DNA of 26,003 nt from a virus: IMG/VR virus record IMGVR_UViG_3300022925_000155, positions 1 to 26,003 of that record; one strand, given 5' to 3'. The translations under genes and the position numbers were made by a program. How positions within the stretch are numbered: position 1 is the stretch's first letter; each line of letters opens with the position of its first letter. Under the pieces are notes generated by a model. That model was not told the origin of the DNA and searched no databases. It was given only the letters and a program-made list of their open reading frames with translations. Positions 27-22,963 of this stretch are shown here, in pieces.

Positions 27-1142
27 ATGGCACAAGCCGCTTCAAATCCGGCCTATAGCGTAAGCTTTCAAGGCCAGAATAACCTAACAGGTGACGTACG
101 TGACCTGTTTCTCAAGCTGTATGCAGGAGAAGTCCTAACAGCCTATGAGGAAAAGAAAGTCCTTATGGATAAAGTGCGTACTCGCACAATCTCAAAAGGT
201 AAGTCTGCTTCATTCCCAATGACAGGCCGTGCAACTGCTGAATACCTGACCCCTGGCAACGAAATCACAGGTGGTTCAATTCGTGCAGGTGAGCGTATCG
301 TCACAATTGACGACTTGCTTATCTCAAGCCAGTTCATTGCTAACATTGATGAAGCTATCAACCACTACGATGTACGTTCAATCTACTCAAAGGAAGCTGG
401 TATTGCACTAGCTAACGAAGCAGACCGTAACGTAGCTCGTATGCTTGTTAAAGCTGCGCTGTCAACTAACGCAACAGCCGCTGCTGGTCTTATTCAAGAC
501 TACAAAGCTTTCACTGAAGAAGACTTTACTTCAAATGTCACCATTGGTACAGCTACTGCTGACTCTCTTGATCCAGCAAAGCTTGCTAAGGCAGTCTTTG
601 ATGCCAAGAAAACAATGGACATTGCTAACGTACCATCAGACAACGCTGTAGTTGTCCTTCCACCAGCACAGTACTATGCACTGATGGATGTAACTGATGG
701 CTCAAAGCTGACATACATGAACCAAGACTTTGGTGGTAACGGTTCAATTGCTTCAGGTATGGTTCCGTCAATTGCAGGTATTCCTGTAATCATGTCAAAC
801 CATGCTGATGTAACTAACCTGTATCAGAACTTTACCACAGGTAATGCTGATGAAGGTAAGACAAACGACAACCAGCCACTAGCAAACACTGCTGGTTCTG
901 GACGCACTACTCACTATGACCTTCCAACTGCTGCTGTAGATGGACGCGACATGGTTGCAGAAGCTGCTAAGTTACGTGGCTTTGTCTTTACACCAGAAGC
1001 TGTTGCTACTGTCAAGCTTCTTGACTTGGGCATGGAGTCTGAGTACCAGATCAACCGTCAAGGCACACTCATGGTTGCTAAGTACGCAATGGGACACAAC
1101 GTCCTGCGTCCTGCATCATGTATTGGTCTTGTAGAGGTCTAA
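27..1142 (+). CDS. Major capsid protein, T7 gp10-like
   Basis: This is the shell-forming major head protein. Its 371 residues compare with 345 for the T7 capsid protein 10A. The N-terminal half, with GQNNLTGDVRDLFLKLYAGE near residues 16-35 and the FPMTGRATAEYLTPGNEI region near 63-80, is typical of T7-type capsid proteins, and the C-terminal third (MESEYQINRQGTLMVAKYAMGH) is the conserved end. A purine-rich ribosome site (agagg at 13-17) precedes the ATG. Codon use is cleaner than in the neighbours, with many C-ending and GGT/GCT codons, as expected for the most abundant virion protein. A strong terminator follows directly. I see no slippery heptamer near the stop that would support a frameshifted 10B form. 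The identification rests on protein similarity recalled from the family plus perfect synteny with the tail genes that follow. Confidence 0.95.
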   Translation: MAQAASNPAYSVSFQGQNNLTGDVRDLFLKLYAGEVLTAYEEKKVLMDKVRTRTISKGKSASFPMTGRATAEYLTPGNEITGGSIRAGERIVTIDDLLISSQFIANIDEAINHYDVRSIYSKEAGIALANEADRNVARMLVKAALSTNATAAAGLIQDYKAFTEEDFTSNVTIGTATADSLDPAKLAKAVFDAKKTMDIANVPSDNAVVVLPPAQYYALMDVTDGSKLTYMNQDFGGNGSIASGMVPSIAGIPVIMSNHADVTNLYQNFTTGNADEGKTNDNQPLANTAGSGRTTHYDLPTAAVDGRDMVAEAAKLRGFVFTPEAVATVKLLDLGMESEYQINRQGTLMVAKYAMGHNVLRPASCIGLVEV

Positions 1143-5507: not shown

Positions 5508-8294
5508 ATGGCTAAACAAAGAGTACTAGTAGGTGAGCTTAATGCTCCCACAGAAGTCACGCCAACAGCACGTGCTGTAGATACCTATGTATCCCCTGAA
5601 AAACCTATAGTTCAAGCCTCACCTTTATCTCAATTTCTTGATGCTATCTCACCACTAACTAATTTAATGCAAGAAGAAGCAAAGAAAGCAAAAGCACTAC
5701 AAGAACGTGATGAGTTAAATGGTAAGAGAGCTAATGAACAGCATCAAGCTGAGATGGCTGCAATTAATTTAACAGCTAGATTAAAAGAAGACTGGATTAC
5801 TAACCAAAATAATTGGTTGTCCTTGACTACTGAAGAAGCAGCCGAAAGAGTATCAAGGCATTATTCTGACTATAGAATGAACTTAGATGAAGCACAGATT
5901 AATCCTCTTGCTTTACAAACCTTTGATCAAAAAGTTGACCAAGATAAACTTCTATTTATGTTTAATAACTTTGGTCCTGAAAAGCGTAAGCGTAACATAG
6001 AGCAACAGGATCAACAATTTAACGATACAATCAGAAGAGCAGGTAGTGTAGCAGAGGATGACCAAATTGTTCCTGCCATGGTTGATGCTTTTAATCAGCA
6101 CGTAGTAGTGACTGGTGGTGACTATCGTAGAGCTAATGATCTAGTAATAGCTACTGCCCTAGTGGAATCTAAAAGAGGCAGAACAAATTATCTTAAATTT
6201 GTAGATGCTATTCAAACTAGAGATGGTAAGTCTCTTAGAAGTATTGATAGGTACGCTGAAGACTTTAATACAATTGATGCTAACGTAGCAGCTTCTATTA
6301 AAGCAACAATTAAAGTTAATAAACCGCTTATTAAGGAAGCTGCTGTAGATAAACTAGTAGCTGACTCTATTGCTACAGGTAATCCTACAGGTGCAAAGGT
6401 AGGGGAAAAAGTCATAGTACCTGATGGTATTGGCGGTACAATTGAATTTACTGTTACTAAAGAAATGGCAGGAAATTCAGCAGATAAACAATTCTTTATC
6501 GCTGATCAATTTTTAAAAGATGAAATAGAAGCTCTTGAAATAGCTAATTCTCAAGGACGTAGTGATTTAGCTACTTTTAATACGGTGATGGAAAACTTTA
6601 AACAACAGCGAGTTGATTTAGAAGCACGTTTTTTTAACACACATTACAATCCACATGACATTGTACCAGCTAGATATAAGCTACCTATCACTGCAGGACT
6701 ACCCTTTTTACAGGGTGGGGATGTAAGCGAAGGTAGCCAAGGAATAGATGCTTTAGGTAATGGACTAAAAGCTATTAGAGATTTTAAGTCTATGGGTGGC
6801 AGCATGTCTACCTTGAAACTTTCTAAAGAACAAGAGTTTAAAGTAAATGCTCTAAATGGTTTGTTGGAATCAGGTAGAGAACTAAGAGACATTGCTCCCT
6901 TTGCATCTAAACCTATTCCCCAAGATTTTGGGAGAGTGGAGACATTAGTAACTGAGGAAAGAGTTAAGGACACAATTGATACAAGTTATTTCTTTGATGG
7001 TACTAACATAGATGAAGCTCAGATTGGATACCCCTCGTTATTGATGGATGTTCAGAAACAAGCTAAAGCTATTATGTTTATGTCAGAGGTACCTATGTCA
7101 GCAGAAGAAGCTGTTGCCTTAGCTATACCACAAGTTAGAGATAATTACCTTACACTTAAAACTAGTCAATGGGATGCGTTTGCTTTAGGCGATCCTAGAC
7201 ACTTCTCAGTGGTAAAGAAAGTATCTGGGCAACTTAATTCAGAAGCTAATGAGGAAATACTTGATGATATACTTACACGCACGTTTGATAATGACCGTGT
7301 AAAAGAAATCATAGCCCCTCGTTTAGCAGCCATAGGATCGTCTACTACAGGTTTCTTTGATCCTGATATGGCTTTTGCTTGGCAGCAAGACTCACGCAAT
7401 ACTAACATGTTAAATCTTATGGCATACGCAGAGGGTGACTACAGCCGCATGGTACGAGTAGGCACTGTTAATCTACAGACTTTAACATCAACTAGTTCAG
7501 TAGCGTTTGCTAACGAGTTAGCTGAGGAATTAAATAAATCTGTAGAGCAAGATGATACAGCGGAACTAATGTCTATTGAGGCACAGAGACTTGCAGAAGA
7601 CTCTGGTATTACTATAGCACCTGCACCTACTGGTTACATTAGTGATCCAGTGAGTAGAGCTTATGACGCCCTTAATCAAACTATGGACATGAGTAGTTCT
7701 ACACTACCTTCTCTTATTACTTCTGCTGGTGCATCAGAACTATTACCTGAAAATAAACCCACAGAGTTAACAAGGGCAGTAGATACAGTTTTATCAACAA
7801 AAAACATTTCTGCTGAAAATGTAACTAAGATTATGCAAACCATAGTCCAACACGAAACTGGTGGTACTATGGACCCTAAGACTATACAAAAGTCTGATAA
7901 AACTACAGATGGTACAGGACCAGCAAGAGGCTTACTACAATATGAACCTGCTAGATTTCTTACCTCAATAACAAGGGCAGAAGAATGGCATAAAAAAACA
8001 GGTAAAAAATTACCTTCTTGGATTACTAAGTTAGGGCCAAAAGTTAGAGGCAAAACATTTAAACAAGTGCAAGATGCTATTCTTAATCTTTCAGGTGAAC
8101 AACAAATTGCTTTAGCTATTTATGATTTACTTGAAGCCCCTAATGCTGATTTTAGTAAAGTAAATCCTAGTGATCTTCAGTCAATTGCAGAGTTTTGGGT
8201 AGAAAACTGGTGGATTGGACCTAAAGGTACAACACAAAAAACTAAAGATGAAATGAAAGAGAAATTTATTGCTTCAGTTAAATCATCTTTCTAA
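5508..8294 (+). CDS. Internal virion protein C, gp15-like, with C-terminal lytic-transglycosylase-like domain
   Basis: At 928 residues this is much longer than T7 gp15 (747). The first ~770 residues are helical, polar and Gln/Lys/Glu-rich, as expected for the periplasmic tunnel component of the ejectosome, and the gene sits between the gp14-like and gp16-like genes. The last ~155 residues look like a separate lysozyme-fold domain: a helix KIMQTIVQHETGG places a probable catalytic glutamate at E783, followed by GPARGLLQYE (804-813), reminiscent of the Glu then Gly-x-x-Gln pattern of soluble lytic transglycosylases, and a Trp-rich end (EFWVENWWIGPKG). In T7 the cell-wall-cutting domain is instead at the N-terminus of gp16. 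The start has a clear aggggaaac site. The core-protein assignment is secure by order; the enzyme domain is inferred from motifs. Confidence 0.85.
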   Translation: MAKQRVLVGELNAPTEVTPTARAVDTYVSPEKPIVQASPLSQFLDAISPLTNLMQEEAKKAKALQERDELNGKRANEQHQAEMAAINLTARLKEDWITNQNNWLSLTTEEAAERVSRHYSDYRMNLDEAQINPLALQTFDQKVDQDKLLFMFNNFGPEKRKRNIEQQDQQFNDTIRRAGSVAEDDQIVPAMVDAFNQHVVVTGGDYRRANDLVIATALVESKRGRTNYLKFVDAIQTRDGKSLRSIDRYAEDFNTIDANVAASIKATIKVNKPLIKEAAVDKLVADSIATGNPTGAKVGEKVIVPDGIGGTIEFTVTKEMAGNSADKQFFIADQFLKDEIEALEIANSQGRSDLATFNTVMENFKQQRVDLEARFFNTHYNPHDIVPARYKLPITAGLPFLQGGDVSEGSQGIDALGNGLKAIRDFKSMGGSMSTLKLSKEQEFKVNALNGLLESGRELRDIAPFASKPIPQDFGRVETLVTEERVKDTIDTSYFFDGTNIDEAQIGYPSLLMDVQKQAKAIMFMSEVPMSAEEAVALAIPQVRDNYLTLKTSQWDAFALGDPRHFSVVKKVSGQLNSEANEEILDDILTRTFDNDRVKEIIAPRLAAIGSSTTGFFDPDMAFAWQQDSRNTNMLNLMAYAEGDYSRMVRVGTVNLQTLTSTSSVAFANELAEELNKSVEQDDTAELMSIEAQRLAEDSGITIAPAPTGYISDPVSRAYDALNQTMDMSSSTLPSLITSAGASELLPENKPTELTRAVDTVLSTKNISAENVTKIMQTIVQHETGGTMDPKTIQKSDKTTDGTGPARGLLQYEPARFLTSITRAEEWHKKTGKKLPSWITKLGPKVRGKTFKQVQDAILNLSGEQQIALAIYDLLEAPNADFSKVNPSDLQSIAEFWVENWWIGPKGTTQKTKDEMKEKFIASVKSSF

Positions 8295-18591: not shown

Positions 18592-18795
18592 ATGAAAATG
18601 ACGCAGGAAGTTACACCAGAACTACGTGTTGCTATAGAATTAGAAGCACACGAAAAGGAATGTGCAGTACGCTATGCGTCTGTTGAAGATAAACTATCAG
18701 GTCTCGACAAAAGATTGTGGAGACTTGAAGCAATGATAATGGGGTCAACGGTTATTATAGTTGGTCTTGCAGCCTCTTTGATGATGAAACTGTAA
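18592..18795 (+). CDS. Small single-membrane-segment protein, holin-like candidate
   Basis: The 67-residue protein has an acidic helical N-terminus (residues 1-45, containing VEDKLSGLDKRLWRLEAM) and one C-terminal membrane helix (about 47-65, MIMGSTVIIVGLAASLMMKL). This layout resembles XhlA-type and other small phage membrane proteins. T7 places its 67-residue holin gp17.5 in the same position, between the fibre gene and the small terminase, so a role in holin-type lysis is the best guess; there is no clear sequence match to gp17.5. A ggag site at 18581-18584 supports the ATG at 18592, and a second ATG occurs at 18598. No endolysin is recognised in the window. Confidence 0.75.
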   Translation: MKMTQEVTPELRVAIELEAHEKECAVRYASVEDKLSGLDKRLWRLEAMIMGSTVIIVGLAASLMMKL

Positions 18796-18806: not shown

Positions 18807-19307
18807 ATGGAACCAATCAGTACTGCCCTAGCTGGGATTGCACTTGTTAAACAAAGTGTAGACTTTATCAAGACACACATTAACACTGTTCAAGATATTG
18901 GACAAATAGCAAGCCAGATTGATGACTTGTTCACAGGCGAAAAGCAAATACAACAAGCCAGAAACAAAAAGTCTGGCGGTGGACTTGGGGATCAATTTGG
19001 GGTAGATACTGTAGCTAAGGAAGTCATAGATGCTAAACTCGCAGCAGAAAAGTTGCAGGAAGTAGCTAATATGATTGACTTGCGGTTTGGTCACGGTACT
19101 TGGAAAGGTATTGTAGCGGAACGTGCTAAAAGATTACAAGAACAACGTGAAGCTCAAGCTCAAGCTAGACGTGAAGCTATACAAAAAGCTCAGGAGTTTG
19201 AGGAAACAATGAAGACTATTGGTATTACTGTTGCTATACTAGCAGTATCTATAGGTCTTTTTATAACCGCTATGGTTTCTATAGCAAAGGCGGCTAATTA
19301 TGTTTAA
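18807..19307 (+). CDS. Coiled-coil protein with C-terminal membrane helix, unknown function
   Basis: The 166-residue product has a weakly hydrophobic N-terminus (MEPISTALAGIALVKQSVDF), a Gly-rich linker near residue 56 (SGGGLGDQFG), a long Gln/Arg/Ala-rich helical stretch (about 103-134, with QEQREAQAQARREAIQKAQE) and a membrane helix at about 136-160 (GITVAILAVSIGLFITAMVS). I know similar hypothetical proteins from marine phages but no assigned function. It sits among other membrane proteins between fibre and terminase genes, so a part in lysis or a membrane-linked accessory role is possible. Its end overlaps the next gene by eight bases. An aaggaa site precedes the start. Confidence 0.8.
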   Translation: MEPISTALAGIALVKQSVDFIKTHINTVQDIGQIASQIDDLFTGEKQIQQARNKKSGGGLGDQFGVDTVAKEVIDAKLAAEKLQEVANMIDLRFGHGTWKGIVAERAKRLQEQREAQAQARREAIQKAQEFEETMKTIGITVAILAVSIGLFITAMVSIAKAANYV

Positions 19308-19503
19308 AACATTTGTACTAGCTTGTAGCTTGTCTGTTCCAACAGATTGCTGGGAATTTAGGGACGCACGTGGTCCTTATAAAACATACGAGCAATGTAA
19401 GTCAAGAGCCTATGAGATGGGTAACGACATTATGTTAATGCCTAATAATGATTTACAACCTAAAATGTTTAAGTGTATTTCATTAAAAGGACAACAATTA
19501 TGA
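19300..19503 (+). CDS. Small cysteine-containing, possibly exported protein
   Basis: This is a 67-residue protein with a short hydrophobic N-terminus (MFKTFVLACSLSVPTDCWEF) and four cysteines (9, 17, 33, 59). This suggests a periplasmic or membrane-exposed protein with disulfides, though the signal-like segment is short. Aromatic and charged residues follow (RDARGPYKTYEQCKSRAYEM). I do not recognise the family. It is embedded between two membrane-anchored genes: it starts eight bases inside the previous gene and its stop overlaps the next start (ATGA at 19500-19503). The tight overlaps argue that it is a real gene and that it is made together with the putative spanin-like lipoprotein. Confidence 0.72.
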   Translation: MFKTFVLACSLSVPTDCWEFRDARGPYKTYEQCKSRAYEMGNDIMLMPNNDLQPKMFKCISLKGQQL

Positions 19504-19946
19504 AAACTTGGAGTAAACTAAAATGCACCTTCATACTCTTATCTACACTTGGATTATTTGGTTGCGAAAACATAAGTATGTCAGATATGTTTACGGCAAG
19601 TGGAGCCTCTGGTGGGGCGGCTGTTGCAAGCATTGTAACTGCGAATCCTGCAATCATTGCTGGAGCAACAGGAGCAGGTGCGCTTGTGGGAGCAAGTCTG
19701 ATTGAAGAAGACAAAAGTCTTAGTGTAGAACAGATAGCCGAAGTACAAAATCCTTGGCAAGCTTTATTAGTAGCTTTAGATCAAATACTAGCTAATGCTT
19801 TTGAACTTGTTATAGGTATTAGTATAGCTGTCTTTGGTATCCCTATGCTTATTACTTACCTTGTAGGTAGAATGAAACAGCGTCCTGAAGATGCTAAAGC
19901 TATTAATGAACTTGTGCATAAAGTAGCAAAGATGAAGGAAGAGTAA
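19500..19946 (+). CDS. Lipoprotein with C-terminal membrane helix, unimolecular spanin-like candidate
   Basis: The start at 19500 (ATG overlapping the previous stop) is preferred over a GTG at 19473; agg at 19488-19490 lies nine bases upstream. The 148-residue product begins with a basic then hydrophobic signal segment ending in a lipobox (LFGC, Cys22). It contains a Gly/Ala-rich hydrophobic stretch (about 38-68), a short acidic region, then a membrane helix at about 101-123 (FELVIGISIAVFGIPMLITY) and a basic/charged tail. A lipid anchor at one end and an inner-membrane helix near the other is the architecture of unimolecular spanins such as phage T1 gp11, which join and disrupt the outer membrane at lysis. 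The location in the T7 lysis-gene zone fits. The Gly/Ala stretch is atypical, so other membrane roles remain possible. Confidence 0.78.
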   Translation: MKTWSKLKCTFILLSTLGLFGCENISMSDMFTASGASGGAAVASIVTANPAIIAGATGAGALVGASLIEEDKSLSVEQIAEVQNPWQALLVALDQILANAFELVIGISIAVFGIPMLITYLVGRMKQRPEDAKAINELVHKVAKMKEE

Positions 19947-19949
19947 AAC

Positions 19950-20090
19950 ATGAGCCTATATGAAAACATAAACAAACGTAAAAAAGCTGGTACTAGTAGA
20001 CCTAAGAGTAAGTCTACTGTAAGTCCTAAAGCCTACGCTAACATGAAAGCTGGCTTTCCTAAGACAGACAAGTACAAGAAGAAAAAGTAA
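19950..20090 (+). CDS. Very small, highly basic conserved phage protein
   Basis: This 46-codon gene encodes a protein made almost entirely of Lys, Ser, Ala, Gly and Tyr, with a start MSLYENINKRKKAG, a middle RPKSKSTVSPKAYANMKAGF and an ending YKKKK. An aaggaag site at 19935-19940 lies about nine bases upstream, and the stop overlaps the small terminase start by one base (TAATG). Short Lys-rich proteins of this type (LYxNIN...RKK) precede packaging genes in many marine phages. The function is unknown. The charge suggests DNA or RNA contact, perhaps as a packaging accessory, but that is inference. Confidence 0.8.
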   Translation: MSLYENINKRKKAGTSRPKSKSTVSPKAYANMKAGFPKTDKYKKKK

Positions 20091-20305
20091 TGACAGAAAA
20101 ACAACTGATAGACAGCTTGCATGAGGCTGTCACCCAAGAACTGCTACTACGTGTACGCAGTGGGGAAGCTACAGCTAGTGAACTATCAGTGGCTGTTAAG
20201 TTTCTTAAAGACAACGGCGCGTCTTTGGATGTCATCATGGCAGAAAGTCCTATGGCTAACTTGCTGCAGGACTTGCCCTTTGATGTAGGGGAGCAACTGC
20301 AATGA
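20090..20305 (+). CDS. Terminase small subunit, T7 gp18-like
   Basis: The product is a 71-residue helical acidic protein; T7 gp18 is 89 residues. The pattern of an N-terminal helix with QELLLRVRSGEATASELSVA followed by VKFLKDNGASLDVI is typical of short T7-like or podophage small terminases, in which the second helix reads 'lyNaiikfLkdn'. It would recognise DNA and regulate the large terminase ATPase. The start overlaps the preceding stop by one base, and the stop overlaps the next start (ATGA at 20302-20305). Unlike T7, where only spanin genes separate 18 and 19, a 330-residue structural-type gene lies between the two terminase genes here. Confidence 0.82.
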   Translation: MTEKQLIDSLHEAVTQELLLRVRSGEATASELSVAVKFLKDNGASLDVIMAESPMANLLQDLPFDVGEQLQ

Positions 20306-21294
20306 GAGAAGGTCCAAATGCAACATTACTTACTACAGAAGCAACATTAAACAATAGTACATGGACTAAATTAGTTAATACTAATGTTAATCGTACTTAC
20401 ATGTCTATACTTAACAATGCCTCAACTTATCCTATACGTATAGGTTTTGGACAAGATACCGTAGAACCTACATCAAGTTATCAAATCTTAGGTGGACTGG
20501 CTACTACTAGTAGTTCTTCTTTATCTAATATCGGTGTTTTTAAATTTGGTATACATGACTCAGTACAAAATGTTGAACAAACAGTATGGGAATATGGTGG
20601 TATCTATACATACCCTACTACTGCTGTAGTTATGACTGTAACCAGTTCTGCTGGTGCTGCTGATAATGGGTGTGAAATAGCTGTTAACGGTTTAGATGAA
20701 AACTATAATGAAGTTACAGAAGTCCTTACACTTTCTGGTGCAGGAACTGCAACAACTACGACAACCTTTATTAGAGTTTTTCGTGGTTATGTAGCAGGTA
20801 GTCAGGATACTACAGGCAATGTAACTATTGGTAATGGTGCTAACGTATATAGTTACGTTAATGCTGATAATCAAACACTACAAGCTTTTTATACAATACC
20901 TGCTGGTTATACAGCACAATTGTTACAAACAGACCATACAATTAGTACAGAGCAAAACAATAAGTTTGGACAGATACGTATTATAGTACGTAGACCAAAC
21001 GGTGTGTTTAGAACTCAAGAAAGTTTTACTATAGATAATGGTTCTGTCAGTCGTATTTACAGTACACCTATTTATATTCCAGAAAAATCTGATATTGAAG
21101 TAAGGGCTATAGCTTCAGGAGCTAATGCTTTTTTACACATTTCTTCCACAATAGAACTAGGTCTTACTAGTACTGCAGTAGATTTTTCTAATAGTTCAAA
21201 CCAGTATGAATTTAAAGTAGCTCCTATTAATACTGTGTGGGCTAAGACTACATCACCTGATCCACATACTATCAAAGTAGTACATGATGACTGA
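20302..21294 (+). CDS. Beta-rich virion-type protein between the terminase genes, unknown
   Basis: The 330-residue product is rich in Thr, Ser, Asn, Gly and Val, has no membrane segment or signal peptide, and alternates short hydrophobic strands, as in head-decoration or tail-surface proteins. Segments such as GGIYTYPTTAVVMTVTSSAG and YTIPAGYTAQLLQTDHTIST look like beta-sandwich strands; the latter resembles stretches in other phage structural proteins. I do not recognise a named family. It is translationally coupled to both neighbours: a four-base overlap with the small terminase and an 11-base overlap with the large terminase, with ggggag at 20288-20293. A virion role (head decoration, or tail or fibre accessory) is inferred from composition only. 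Confidence 0.8.
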   Translation: MREGPNATLLTTEATLNNSTWTKLVNTNVNRTYMSILNNASTYPIRIGFGQDTVEPTSSYQILGGLATTSSSSLSNIGVFKFGIHDSVQNVEQTVWEYGGIYTYPTTAVVMTVTSSAGAADNGCEIAVNGLDENYNEVTEVLTLSGAGTATTTTTFIRVFRGYVAGSQDTTGNVTIGNGANVYSYVNADNQTLQAFYTIPAGYTAQLLQTDHTISTEQNNKFGQIRIIVRRPNGVFRTQESFTIDNGSVSRIYSTPIYIPEKSDIEVRAIASGANAFLHISSTIELGLTSTAVDFSNSSNQYEFKVAPINTVWAKTTSPDPHTIKVVHDD

Positions 21295-22963
21295 TGTTCC
21301 AGAGCAACTTAAAGACTTCAGGAACTTTACATACCTTGTATGGCAACATTTAGGACTACCAGAGCCTACTCCTATTCAGTACGATATAGCACACTATCTA
21401 CAGCACAGTCCTAAGCGTTGTATTATTGAGGCTTTTCGTGGTGTAGGTAAATCTTACATTACTGCTGCTTACGTAGTACATCAGCTACTCCTTGATCCAC
21501 AACTAAAGTTTATGGTGGTGTCAGCTAGTAAAGCAAGAGCAGATGACTTCTCTACCTTTACTCAGCGTATTATTATGGAATTACCTATATGTCAACATCT
21601 AGTAGCTAAAGATGGACAACGGTGGTCTAAGATAGCCTTTGATGTAGCTCCTGCTAAGGCTTCTGGTTCACCCTCAGTAAAGTCTGTAGGTGTTACAGGT
21701 CAGCTTACAGGTAGCCGTGCAGACATTATCATTGCTGACGATGTGGAAGTACCTAACAACTCCATGACCCATATGATGAGAGAGAAGCTTGGAGAAACAG
21801 TAAAAGAATTTGATGCTGTTCTCAAGCCCTCAGGTAAGATTATATACCTTGGTACACCACAGAACGAGATGTCTCTCTATAATACACTGCTAGCACGTGG
21901 CTATGAGATGAGAGTATGGCCTGCTAGATACCCTACCCTAGAACGCTCAGAGAAGGCGTATGGGGGCAGGTTAGCTCCTTTGCTGTATGATTCTCTACAA
22001 ACTAACCTAGAGGCCGTGTATGGGCTTCCTACAGACCCTAAACGGTTTGACGATACAGACTTACTAGAAAGAGAACTAAGTTATGGTAGAAGTGGTTTTG
22101 CTTTGCAATTTATGTTGGATACTTCACTATCTGATGCAAACAAATACCCCCTTAAACTAAGTGACTTAATGATTTACTCATGTGACAAGGATACTGCACC
22201 TGAGAAACTAGTCTATGGTATCTTCAAACCACTACCAGAGCTACCCAATGTAGGTCTTGCAGGAGACAAGTTCTACGCCCCTGAGGACACTATAGGACGC
22301 TCTGAGTACACAGGTAGCATACTTGCAGTTGACCCCTCTGGTAGAGGCTCTGACGAGACTGCATACGCTGTTGTAAAGATGCTTAACGGTTTCCTACACG
22401 TAGTTGACTGTGGTGGCATTGAAGGTGGCTATTCTGAGAAGACATTACAACACCTCACTGACCTCGCTAAGATACACAAAGTCAACATGGTGTTGGTTGA
22501 GAGTAACTTTGGTGACGGAATGTTTACTGAGTTACTGAAGCCTTACTTAGTTAATACTTATCCAGTAACGATAGAAGAAGTAAGACATAGTAAACAAAAG
22601 GAACAAAGGATCATTGATACCCTTGAGCCTGTAATGAACCAACATAGACTTGTAGTAGACCCTAAGGTCATACAAAAAGACTACGATAGTGTACAGCATA
22701 TGCCACCAGACAAAGCTGCTAAGTACATGCTGACCTACCAGATGACTAGGATTACTAAACAAAGAGGGGCATTGGCTCATGACGATAGACTTGACGTTCT
22801 TGCTATGGCAGTGCAGTACTGGACAGACCAGATGGCTGCTGACGCAGATACACAAATACAATCAAGAAAAGAAGAACTACTAGATAATGAACTAGATAAG
22901 TTTATGTCTCACCTTAATCTAGGTACTAAAGATACAGGTGAGTCTGGTTGGCTGTCACTATAG
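21284..22963 (+). CDS. Terminase large subunit, T7 gp19-like ATPase/nuclease
   Basis: This packaging motor of 559 residues (T7 gp19 is 586) pumps DNA into the prohead and cuts concatemers. The ATPase domain shows Walker A FRGVGKS at 51-57, a Walker B IIIADDVE at 148-155 with the acidic pair 152/153 and catalytic-type Glu155, and a coupling motif YLGTPQ near 188-193. The RNase-H-type nuclease domain has ILAVDPSGRGSDETAYAV with the first metal-binding Asp at 350, a VLVESNFGDG strand near 405, and HDDRLDVLAMAV with Asp500, 501 and 504. All key residues are present. Two consecutive ATGs (21284, 21287) are possible starts. The last codons contain CACTATAGG, close to a T7-class promoter core, where T7 has a promoter (phiOR) near its right end. 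Confidence 0.96.
   Translation: MMTDVPEQLKDFRNFTYLVWQHLGLPEPTPIQYDIAHYLQHSPKRCIIEAFRGVGKSYITAAYVVHQLLLDPQLKFMVVSASKARADDFSTFTQRIIMELPICQHLVAKDGQRWSKIAFDVAPAKASGSPSVKSVGVTGQLTGSRADIIIADDVEVPNNSMTHMMREKLGETVKEFDAVLKPSGKIIYLGTPQNEMSLYNTLLARGYEMRVWPARYPTLERSEKAYGGRLAPLLYDSLQTNLEAVYGLPTDPKRFDDTDLLERELSYGRSGFALQFMLDTSLSDANKYPLKLSDLMIYSCDKDTAPEKLVYGIFKPLPELPNVGLAGDKFYAPEDTIGRSEYTGSILAVDPSGRGSDETAYAVVKMLNGFLHVVDCGGIEGGYSEKTLQHLTDLAKIHKVNMVLVESNFGDGMFTELLKPYLVNTYPVTIEEVRHSKQKEQRIIDTLEPVMNQHRLVVDPKVIQKDYDSVQHMPPDKAAKYMLTYQMTRITKQRGALAHDDRLDVLAMAVQYWTDQMAADADTQIQSRKEELLDNELDKFMSHLNLGTKDTGESGWLSL

Follow-up and report, generated by a model that had tools for sequence, protein, structure and literature searches.

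The window analysed here is the whole of an IMG/VR virus record, 26,003 bases long. At 19500-19946 (+ strand) it contains a gene, which we call U, for a 148-residue predicted lipoprotein with a C-terminal transmembrane helix (TM) and a layout like that of the unimolecular spanins (u-spanins). From its sequence and setting, U is predicted to have a u-spanin layout and a lysis address, yet it stands in for a 3TM 'holin' gene and not for Rz/Rz1. Its slot, as shown through sister phages, makes U a predicted lysis gene. That U acts as a u-spanin-type lysis protein is our preferred reading, at no better than even odds. Its layout, the lack of any further cysteine and a precedent in cobaviruses favour u-spanin action; a holin-like or double role is favoured by its exchange with 3TM holin-type genes, by the better conservation of its inner-membrane half and by the Asp that follows the lipid Cys in 8 of 24 family members. 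A function other than these two seems to us improbable.

No genes for RNA polymerase, primase or DNA polymerase were seen by eye in the ORF list of the 26-kb record, which therefore evidently covers part of the genome of a T7-like marine phage. The large terminase (TerL, 21284-22963, +) is up to 61% identical to that of Roseobacter phage CRP-361 and similar phages. X, M1, C and U form a block of four genes that overlap or follow closely on one another, with U at its end. The block stands between a gene for a tail fibre assembly chaperone (PF16778; 18087-18587, +), which precedes the cassette, and the genes for a 46-residue basic protein (19950-20090, +) and the small terminase (TerS, PF11123; 20090-20305, +). 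The 46-residue protein also adjoins lysozyme in the sister cassettes L086 and L111. X (18592-18795, +) encodes 67 residues with a C-terminal TM, recurs in the module and is by inference a candidate holin or antiholin. M1 (18807-19307, +) encodes 166 residues, also with a C-terminal TM. Gene C (19300-19503, +) encodes a Cys-containing protein of 67 residues and overlaps both M1 and U, and these overlaps make translational coupling of the three likely. The U reading frame starts with an ATG at 19500, just downstream of AAAAGGA and overlapping the stop codon of gene C, and ends with a stop codon at 19944-19946. The 148-residue frame read at this place from the sequence alone is thus a real one.

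The signal segment of U (residues 1-21) has a Lys-containing start and a hydrophobic core and runs into an LFGC box, with Cys22 as the predicted lipidated residue. This is followed by a Ser/Asp-containing segment, a Gly/Ala-rich hydrophobic stretch (38-68), an acidic segment, NPWQALLVALDQILANAFELVI leading into a strong membrane helix, and a basic tail. We place a juxtamembrane helix at 84-102, the TM at about 103-122 and the cytoplasmic tail at 123-148. The looser PROSITE-style lipobox pattern was applied, and LFGC fits it. LFGC does not fit the strict rule [LVI][ASTVI][GAS]C, as quoted in excerpts of PMC6139136, because position -2 is Phe. Given the fit to the loose pattern and a cysteine that is invariant in all 24 aligned members of the family (see below), the signal segment with lipobox LFGC and Cys22 proposed in the sequence-only reading stands, as a predicted type II signal.

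The best 19-residue hydropathy window of U is 104-122 (Kyte-Doolittle mean 2.32). It is the sole strong membrane segment of the protein and agrees with the helix expected at about 101-123. Residues R124, K126 and R128 come directly after it, and under the positive-inside rule this places the C-terminus in the cytoplasm. The AlphaFold2 model consists of helices only and is of low confidence (mean pLDDT 55.3), giving a hint at most. The Gly/Ala stretch, which it had been suggested might form a second membrane segment, does exist; it is weakly hydrophobic (best window 50-68, mean 1.65). As a second full TM it was rejected, on the basis of this weak hydropathy, a near-neutral crude pN/pS and the low-confidence model; it may form a hairpin.

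Relatives of U were found on 39 IMG/VR contigs. With the window sequence this gives 40 sequences, of which 24 form the alignment A2 after exclusion of 14 identical or near-identical sequences and two cut ones (L013 and L048); its members are 54-99% identical to U. The strict lipobox rule describes 17 of the 24 and the loose one all 24, the boxes being LSGC (7), LTAC (3), FTAC (3), LFGC (2) and nine others occurring once each. In every member the C-terminal TM window scores 2.20-2.58 and is followed by basic residues, and no cysteine occurs after the lipid Cys. The residue after the lipid Cys (+2) is Glu in 11 members, among them the window protein, Asp in 8, Ser in 2, Gly in 2 and Phe in 1. 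In E. coli, an Asp at this position retains lipoproteins in the inner membrane, a rule that may not be that of the hosts concerned here.

Conservation is strongest in the inner-membrane half of U, made up of the juxtamembrane, TM and cytoplasmic parts. Invariant columns in A2 number 0/31 in the Gly/Ala stretch, 11/17 in residues 84-100, 7/23 in 101-123 and 13/25 in the tail. Crude pN/pS values from six close relatives are 0.36 for residues 1-21, 0.09 for 22-37, 0.83 for 38-68, 0.23 for 69-83, 0.12 for 84-123 and 0.23 for 124-145. We conclude from both measures that U keeps its lipid end and its end in the inner membrane, and that the Gly/Ala stretch keeps its composition and not its sequence.

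Profile searches gave no clear name to the family. Spanin profiles of the PHROG collection matched at noise level only (phrog_1026, E 0.24, in 2 of 24 members), and the better matches carry no function label: phrog_14537 in 13/24 (best E 2.4e-4) and phrog_19883 in 7/24 (best 2.5e-4). The best Pfam match had an E value of 0.018, with unrelated names, and a profile search of the PDB gave three chance matches (best E 3.9). Tblastn with U at E values up to 10 found no match in 50,697 GenBank phage records, and the distant member L016 used as query gave four chance matches only. One pattern scan of genome contigs produced no confirmed U relative. A family with no tblastn relative in so many phage records, yet present on 39 viral contigs and in two phage backgrounds, may represent an unannotated host-opening step. 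No description of the U family or of the exchange reported below was found in an open-access literature search, and the available portions of PMC11092137, PMC9038755 and PMC12596118 contain nothing on the U gene.

The slot before TerS was then compared among related loci. Loci were collected by scans with the window M1 (best 80 of 122) and with TerS (best 80 of 482), and those sharing an identical 400-base stretch were merged, giving 97 groups. Two 3TM types were distinguished: H3a, of the PF11351 'GTA holin 3TM' type, and H3b, a second 3TM-type protein (phrog_2524). The H3 counts rest on separate H3a and H3b models; rows used to build the models (U, M1, H3a, H3b and others) are themselves included in the counts. 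Among the loci listed, the 97 groups comprise 22 with U, 28 with H3a and 28 with H3b, and none with two of the three together; either 3TM type was found in 0 of the 22 U groups, and one 3TM type in 56 of the 97. The T7-like slot before TerS is fully visible in 45 groups, where it holds U in 6, H3a in 17 and H3b in 22, and is never empty and never doubly occupied. The 109 single loci in which TerS and either M1 or gene C are visible, some contigs being counted more than once, have U in 32, H3a in 25 and H3b in 50, again with no case of two. The remaining two (L227 and L233) have none of the three; there a 119-residue hydrophobic protein, missed by the 3TM models, fills the slot (L227 1621-1980; L233 2195-2554), and in the group counts both loci are merged with H3 groups.

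The exchange can be followed between close relatives. In near relatives whose M1 is 86-89% identical, the place of U is held by a PF11351 protein (5.6e-21 in L086, 4.7e-25 in L091), followed downstream in L086 by a phage lysozyme gene (PF00959, 3.6e-21); in other near relatives an H3b-type protein is found in place of U, with or without lysozyme. Gene order is X, M1, C, 3TM, TerS, 104-residue gene, TerL in L102, and X, M1, C, U, TerS, 104-residue gene, TerL in L011. When the U/H3 label is traced on an M1 tree (108 rows, 85 labelled), 10 changes are required, and well-supported branches force at least 5 of these; the tree of TerL from the T7-like loci (56 rows) requires 2. Such repeated changes on both trees indicate that the mutual exclusion is not one inherited accident. 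The tree counts, made by a quick method on trees with many weak branches, are a safer measure than the Fisher value for exclusion of 7e-11, which overstates the evidence since the groups are not independent.

We considered U as a diverged 3TM holin and rejected this: profile similarity is lacking (hhalign probability 0.4 against H3a and 1.2 against H3b), and PF11351 did not appear for U above the curated cut-off, in the list of families matched by the 24 members (E ≤ 1) or in six U-bearing records. The PF11351 proteins examined have neither a signal peptide nor a lipobox, and they occur in the slot of U in near relatives and never together with it.

The exchange bears directly on two other readings of U. 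In one, U would be a non-lytic envelope lipoprotein, for example for superinfection exclusion or membrane stress, in a variable slot. Some outer-membrane lipoproteins of bacteria, OsmB and SlyB among them, contain glycine-rich hydrophobic hairpins, U is without a functional label in Pfam or PHROGs, and the crude pN/pS of its Gly/Ala stretch is near 0.8. Against this, no visible T7-like slot is empty or contains two of the three genes, in the 45 groups as in the 109 loci, and a slot that is never empty and never double is expected for one needed function rather than for an accessory gene. The alternatives found at the slot are, moreover, holin-type and lysozyme genes. We consider a non-lytic role to be distinctly unlikely.

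The other reading takes the exchange at face value: U would be a holin-type inner-membrane protein, with a lipid anchor, a glycine-rich hairpin and a C-terminal TM, that opens or depolarises the membrane and so takes over the task of the 3TM holin in whose place it stands. The mutual exclusion with the 3TM genes is what would be expected of such a protein, as are the stronger conservation of the inner-membrane half, the Asp after the lipid Cys in 8/24 and, at its low confidence, the helical model. There are also weak holin profile matches near noise, in PHROGs (phrog_2609, E 0.026, in 5/24; phrog_443, E 0.034, in 2/24) and in Pfam (PF16945, E 0.15, and PF16082, E 0.78, in one member each). However, U has no similarity to H3a or H3b, and an invariant lipobox is not known as a trait of holins. 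The TM proteins X and M1 remain in the phages that have U, and either could be the holin. In addition, cobaviruses have a published u-spanin in a slot of this kind. On balance, we see a holin-type U as possible but less probable than a u-spanin.

A u-spanin is defined by its layout and function, not by its sequence. The prototype is T1 gp11, which complements Rz/Rz1, and Kongari et al. sorted 58 u-spanins into 13 families, with periplasmic Cys absent from all 58 (excerpts of PMC6139136). As far as those excerpts describe gp11, U shares with it the single gene, the N-terminal lipobox, the C-terminal TM, the lack of periplasmic Cys and the predicted place in a lysis cassette, but the periplasmic part of gp11 is predicted to be β-rich, whereas that of U is Gly/Ala-rich and modelled as helical at low confidence. 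At the level of sequence, the comparison covers the tblastn search of the phage collection, in which U has no match. The same excerpts state that the membrane-localisation parts of spanins serve anchoring only. The u-spanin topology suggested by analogy to gp11 is thus retained as a layout, with its lipobox, its C-terminal TM and no Cys; the low-confidence helical model and the conservation pattern differ from what is reported for gp11. Also against a u-spanin are the replacement of a gene called holin and not spanin, the want of a spanin profile above noise and of a lysozyme near U.

A parallel to U was found in the cobaviruses. The excerpted text of PMC6775973 describes, for ICBM1 and ICBM2, spanins whose N-terminus is that of a lipoprotein and whose C-terminal part is a TM, and it mentions the SIO1 spanin. 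We identified the SIO1 spanin gene as gp22 (113 residues), with matches in 15 phage records, duplicates included; a hydrophobic protein of CRP-5 at the corresponding position is matched in 26 records, and no record is common to both sets. Compared gene by gene, ICBM1 and CRP-4 have an endolysin (69% identical), a 257/259-residue protein (52.5%), the slot gene and an 86/82-residue protein (52.6%), where the slot gene is the spanin in ICBM1 and a 147-residue hydrophobic protein in CRP-4. The latter has three hydrophobic segments and no holin label (phrog_38283, without function label), and the CRP-4/CRP-5 protein is neither H3a nor H3b. A recognised u-spanin thus behaves in cobaviruses as U does here, with unrelated sequence. 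The two cases have in common marine phages of roseobacters, a lipobox with a C-terminal TM, and a slot that is also taken by a three-segment hydrophobic gene; the cobavirus u-spanin differs in its length of 113 residues, its short tail after the TM and its sequence. U as a relative of the SIO1 spanin was rejected, because the hhalign probability is 6.6 and the signal peptide alone aligns.

Predicted u-spanins also occur in lysis cassettes of Autographiviridae, namely the KP34 group (PMC4411677) and Phimunavirus (PMC6115819), in the order spanin, holin, SAR endolysin as given in excerpts of these papers, while no holin or endolysin was recognised next to U. Their sequences were compared with U through the phage-wide tblastn search only. 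Judged from layout and gene order, U appears to differ from known u-spanins in its glycine-rich, helical-looking middle and in its slot. The clean exchange with holin-labelled genes, matched in the cobaviruses, raises the question whether 3TM 'GTA holins' and u-spanin-like lipoproteins are functional equivalents. That the two are interchangeable solutions to one lysis step of marine phages is an idea that we put forward tentatively and think rather unlikely. If true, the role of the 3TM proteins would extend beyond, or differ from, hole formation in the inner membrane; alternatively, U-type lipoproteins would act on both membranes, permeabilising the inner and disrupting the outer, and a single small protein would serve as holin and spanin.

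If U acts as a u-spanin, it would be exported, and Cys22 would be lipidated and carried to the outer membrane while the C-terminus stayed in the inner membrane. About 80 residues, with a glycine-rich and probably helical middle, would then span the periplasm. After cleavage of the cell wall, U molecules might cluster and pull or fuse both membranes, which is the action proposed for u-spanins. Oligomerisation, or contact with a partner such as M1, would probably take place in the inner-membrane half (84-135).

M1 adjoins U in every U locus except the cut ones (L013 and L048), and the pairing occurs in two phage backgrounds, the T7-like one and other phages with a different terminase and portal. 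The M1 relatives in other phages match phrog_32327, which has no function label. We considered a two-part envelope bridge, with M1 as the inner-membrane partner and U as the bridging lipoprotein, for which the constant adjacency in uncut loci would speak. M1 is, however, equally present with the 3TM genes, and with neither in other phages, and so is not specific to U; as read from the charges in its sequence, the bulk of M1 lies on the cytoplasmic side. Such a bridge seems to us very improbable. In Limnohabitans phage DC31, the genes directly after the X-like and M1 genes encode a membrane protein of 112 residues, a protein resembling Rz (phrog_2466, 4e-7; the top match, phrog_5777, is unlabelled) and an M15 endolysin, so that the X/M1 module there borders a plain lysis cassette. 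M1 or TerS occurs without U and without H3a or H3b in 19 of the 97 groups. In three of these 19 (L122, L131 and L139), M1 lies among other genes, with no lysis gene recognised there, and M1 alone is thus not a lysis marker. We note that M1 in L034 (7046-7744) has a Cys-containing extension after the TM, and that next to it in L040 (6987-7747) lies a separate protein that contains Cys and starts with a hydrophobic segment. The two look like fused or split forms, which suggests a periplasmic partner domain for M1.

In the slot-visible groups, a lysozyme gene lies nearby in 26 of 39 H3 groups and in none of 6 U groups; over all U groups the count near U is 0 of 22. A Phage_lysozyme search of 12 U-bearing records gave two matches: one in G001, located in a second phage segment without U, and a weaker one in G002 that stayed below the cut-off. 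Among 10 selected ORFs of a U-bearing 43.5-kb record, a virion-type lysozyme domain was found in a 1058-residue protein, and no free endolysin. A search for a T7-type amidase in records of 13 relatives, made without a positive control, found none. Within the 26-kb window, our own scan found two lipobox ORFs of at least 40 residues, U and an antisense ORF of 55 residues within M1; no further spanin candidate and no Rz/Rz1 partner was recognised. A first-order Markov control of 60 sequences gave a mean of 0.5 lipobox ORFs, and none with a length of at least 120 residues and a C-terminal helix. At 5508-8294 of the window, the protein in the T7 gp15 position has a C-terminal part that by eye resembles a lytic transglycosylase, with no meaningful Pfam match.

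In T7, the spanin genes 18.5/18.7 lie between the terminase genes, and the sequence-only reading held that here another gene takes this position and U replaces the pair. The first part is correct, as a 330-residue protein (20302-21294, +; phrog_8198, no function label) is found there. The second part is not supported: the genes with which U is exchanged are of the 3TM holin type and lie upstream of TerS, while the TerS-TerL gap varies on its own among relatives, with a 104-residue gene, a 96-residue gene, or both. For this reason the gene between TerS and TerL was also rejected as a spanin slot here. Rz/Rz1 of lambda and 18.5/18.7 of T7 consist of two genes, with a coiled-coil i-spanin that has an N-terminal TM, whereas U is a single gene with a C-terminal TM, upstream of TerS; what they would share is the proposed end result, disruption of the outer membrane. 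The 330-residue protein of the window and its 104-residue counterpart in relatives have similar ends, by eye, and the middle is longer in the former.

The 96-residue protein of the gap (L111 6254-6544; L119 3561-3851) has an N-terminal TM and a coiled-coil-like remainder (phrog_20984). In its T7 18.5 position it looks like an unannotated i-spanin. Among slot-visible groups it occurs in 0 of 6 with U and 12 of 39 others, numbers too few to conclude from, and in 0 of all 22 U groups. A 40,223-base IMG/VR record (L235-L237) has a 3TM gene together with the 96-residue coiled-coil-like gene; M1 is split over both ends of this record, which is thus probably a complete, circularly assembled genome. 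No free endolysin was seen by eye in its ORF list, and the T7-type amidase search gave none.

A 64,029-base IMG/VR record (L051-L054, the source of L014) seemingly holds two related phage segments in tandem, with several structural genes occurring twice in its ORF list; the first segment has the U gene, and the second has M1, M2, a 3TM gene and lysozyme. In L088 (1929-3674) and L091 (5601-7349), a gene that by eye is ribonucleotide-reductase-like comes directly after lysozyme, where others have TerS.
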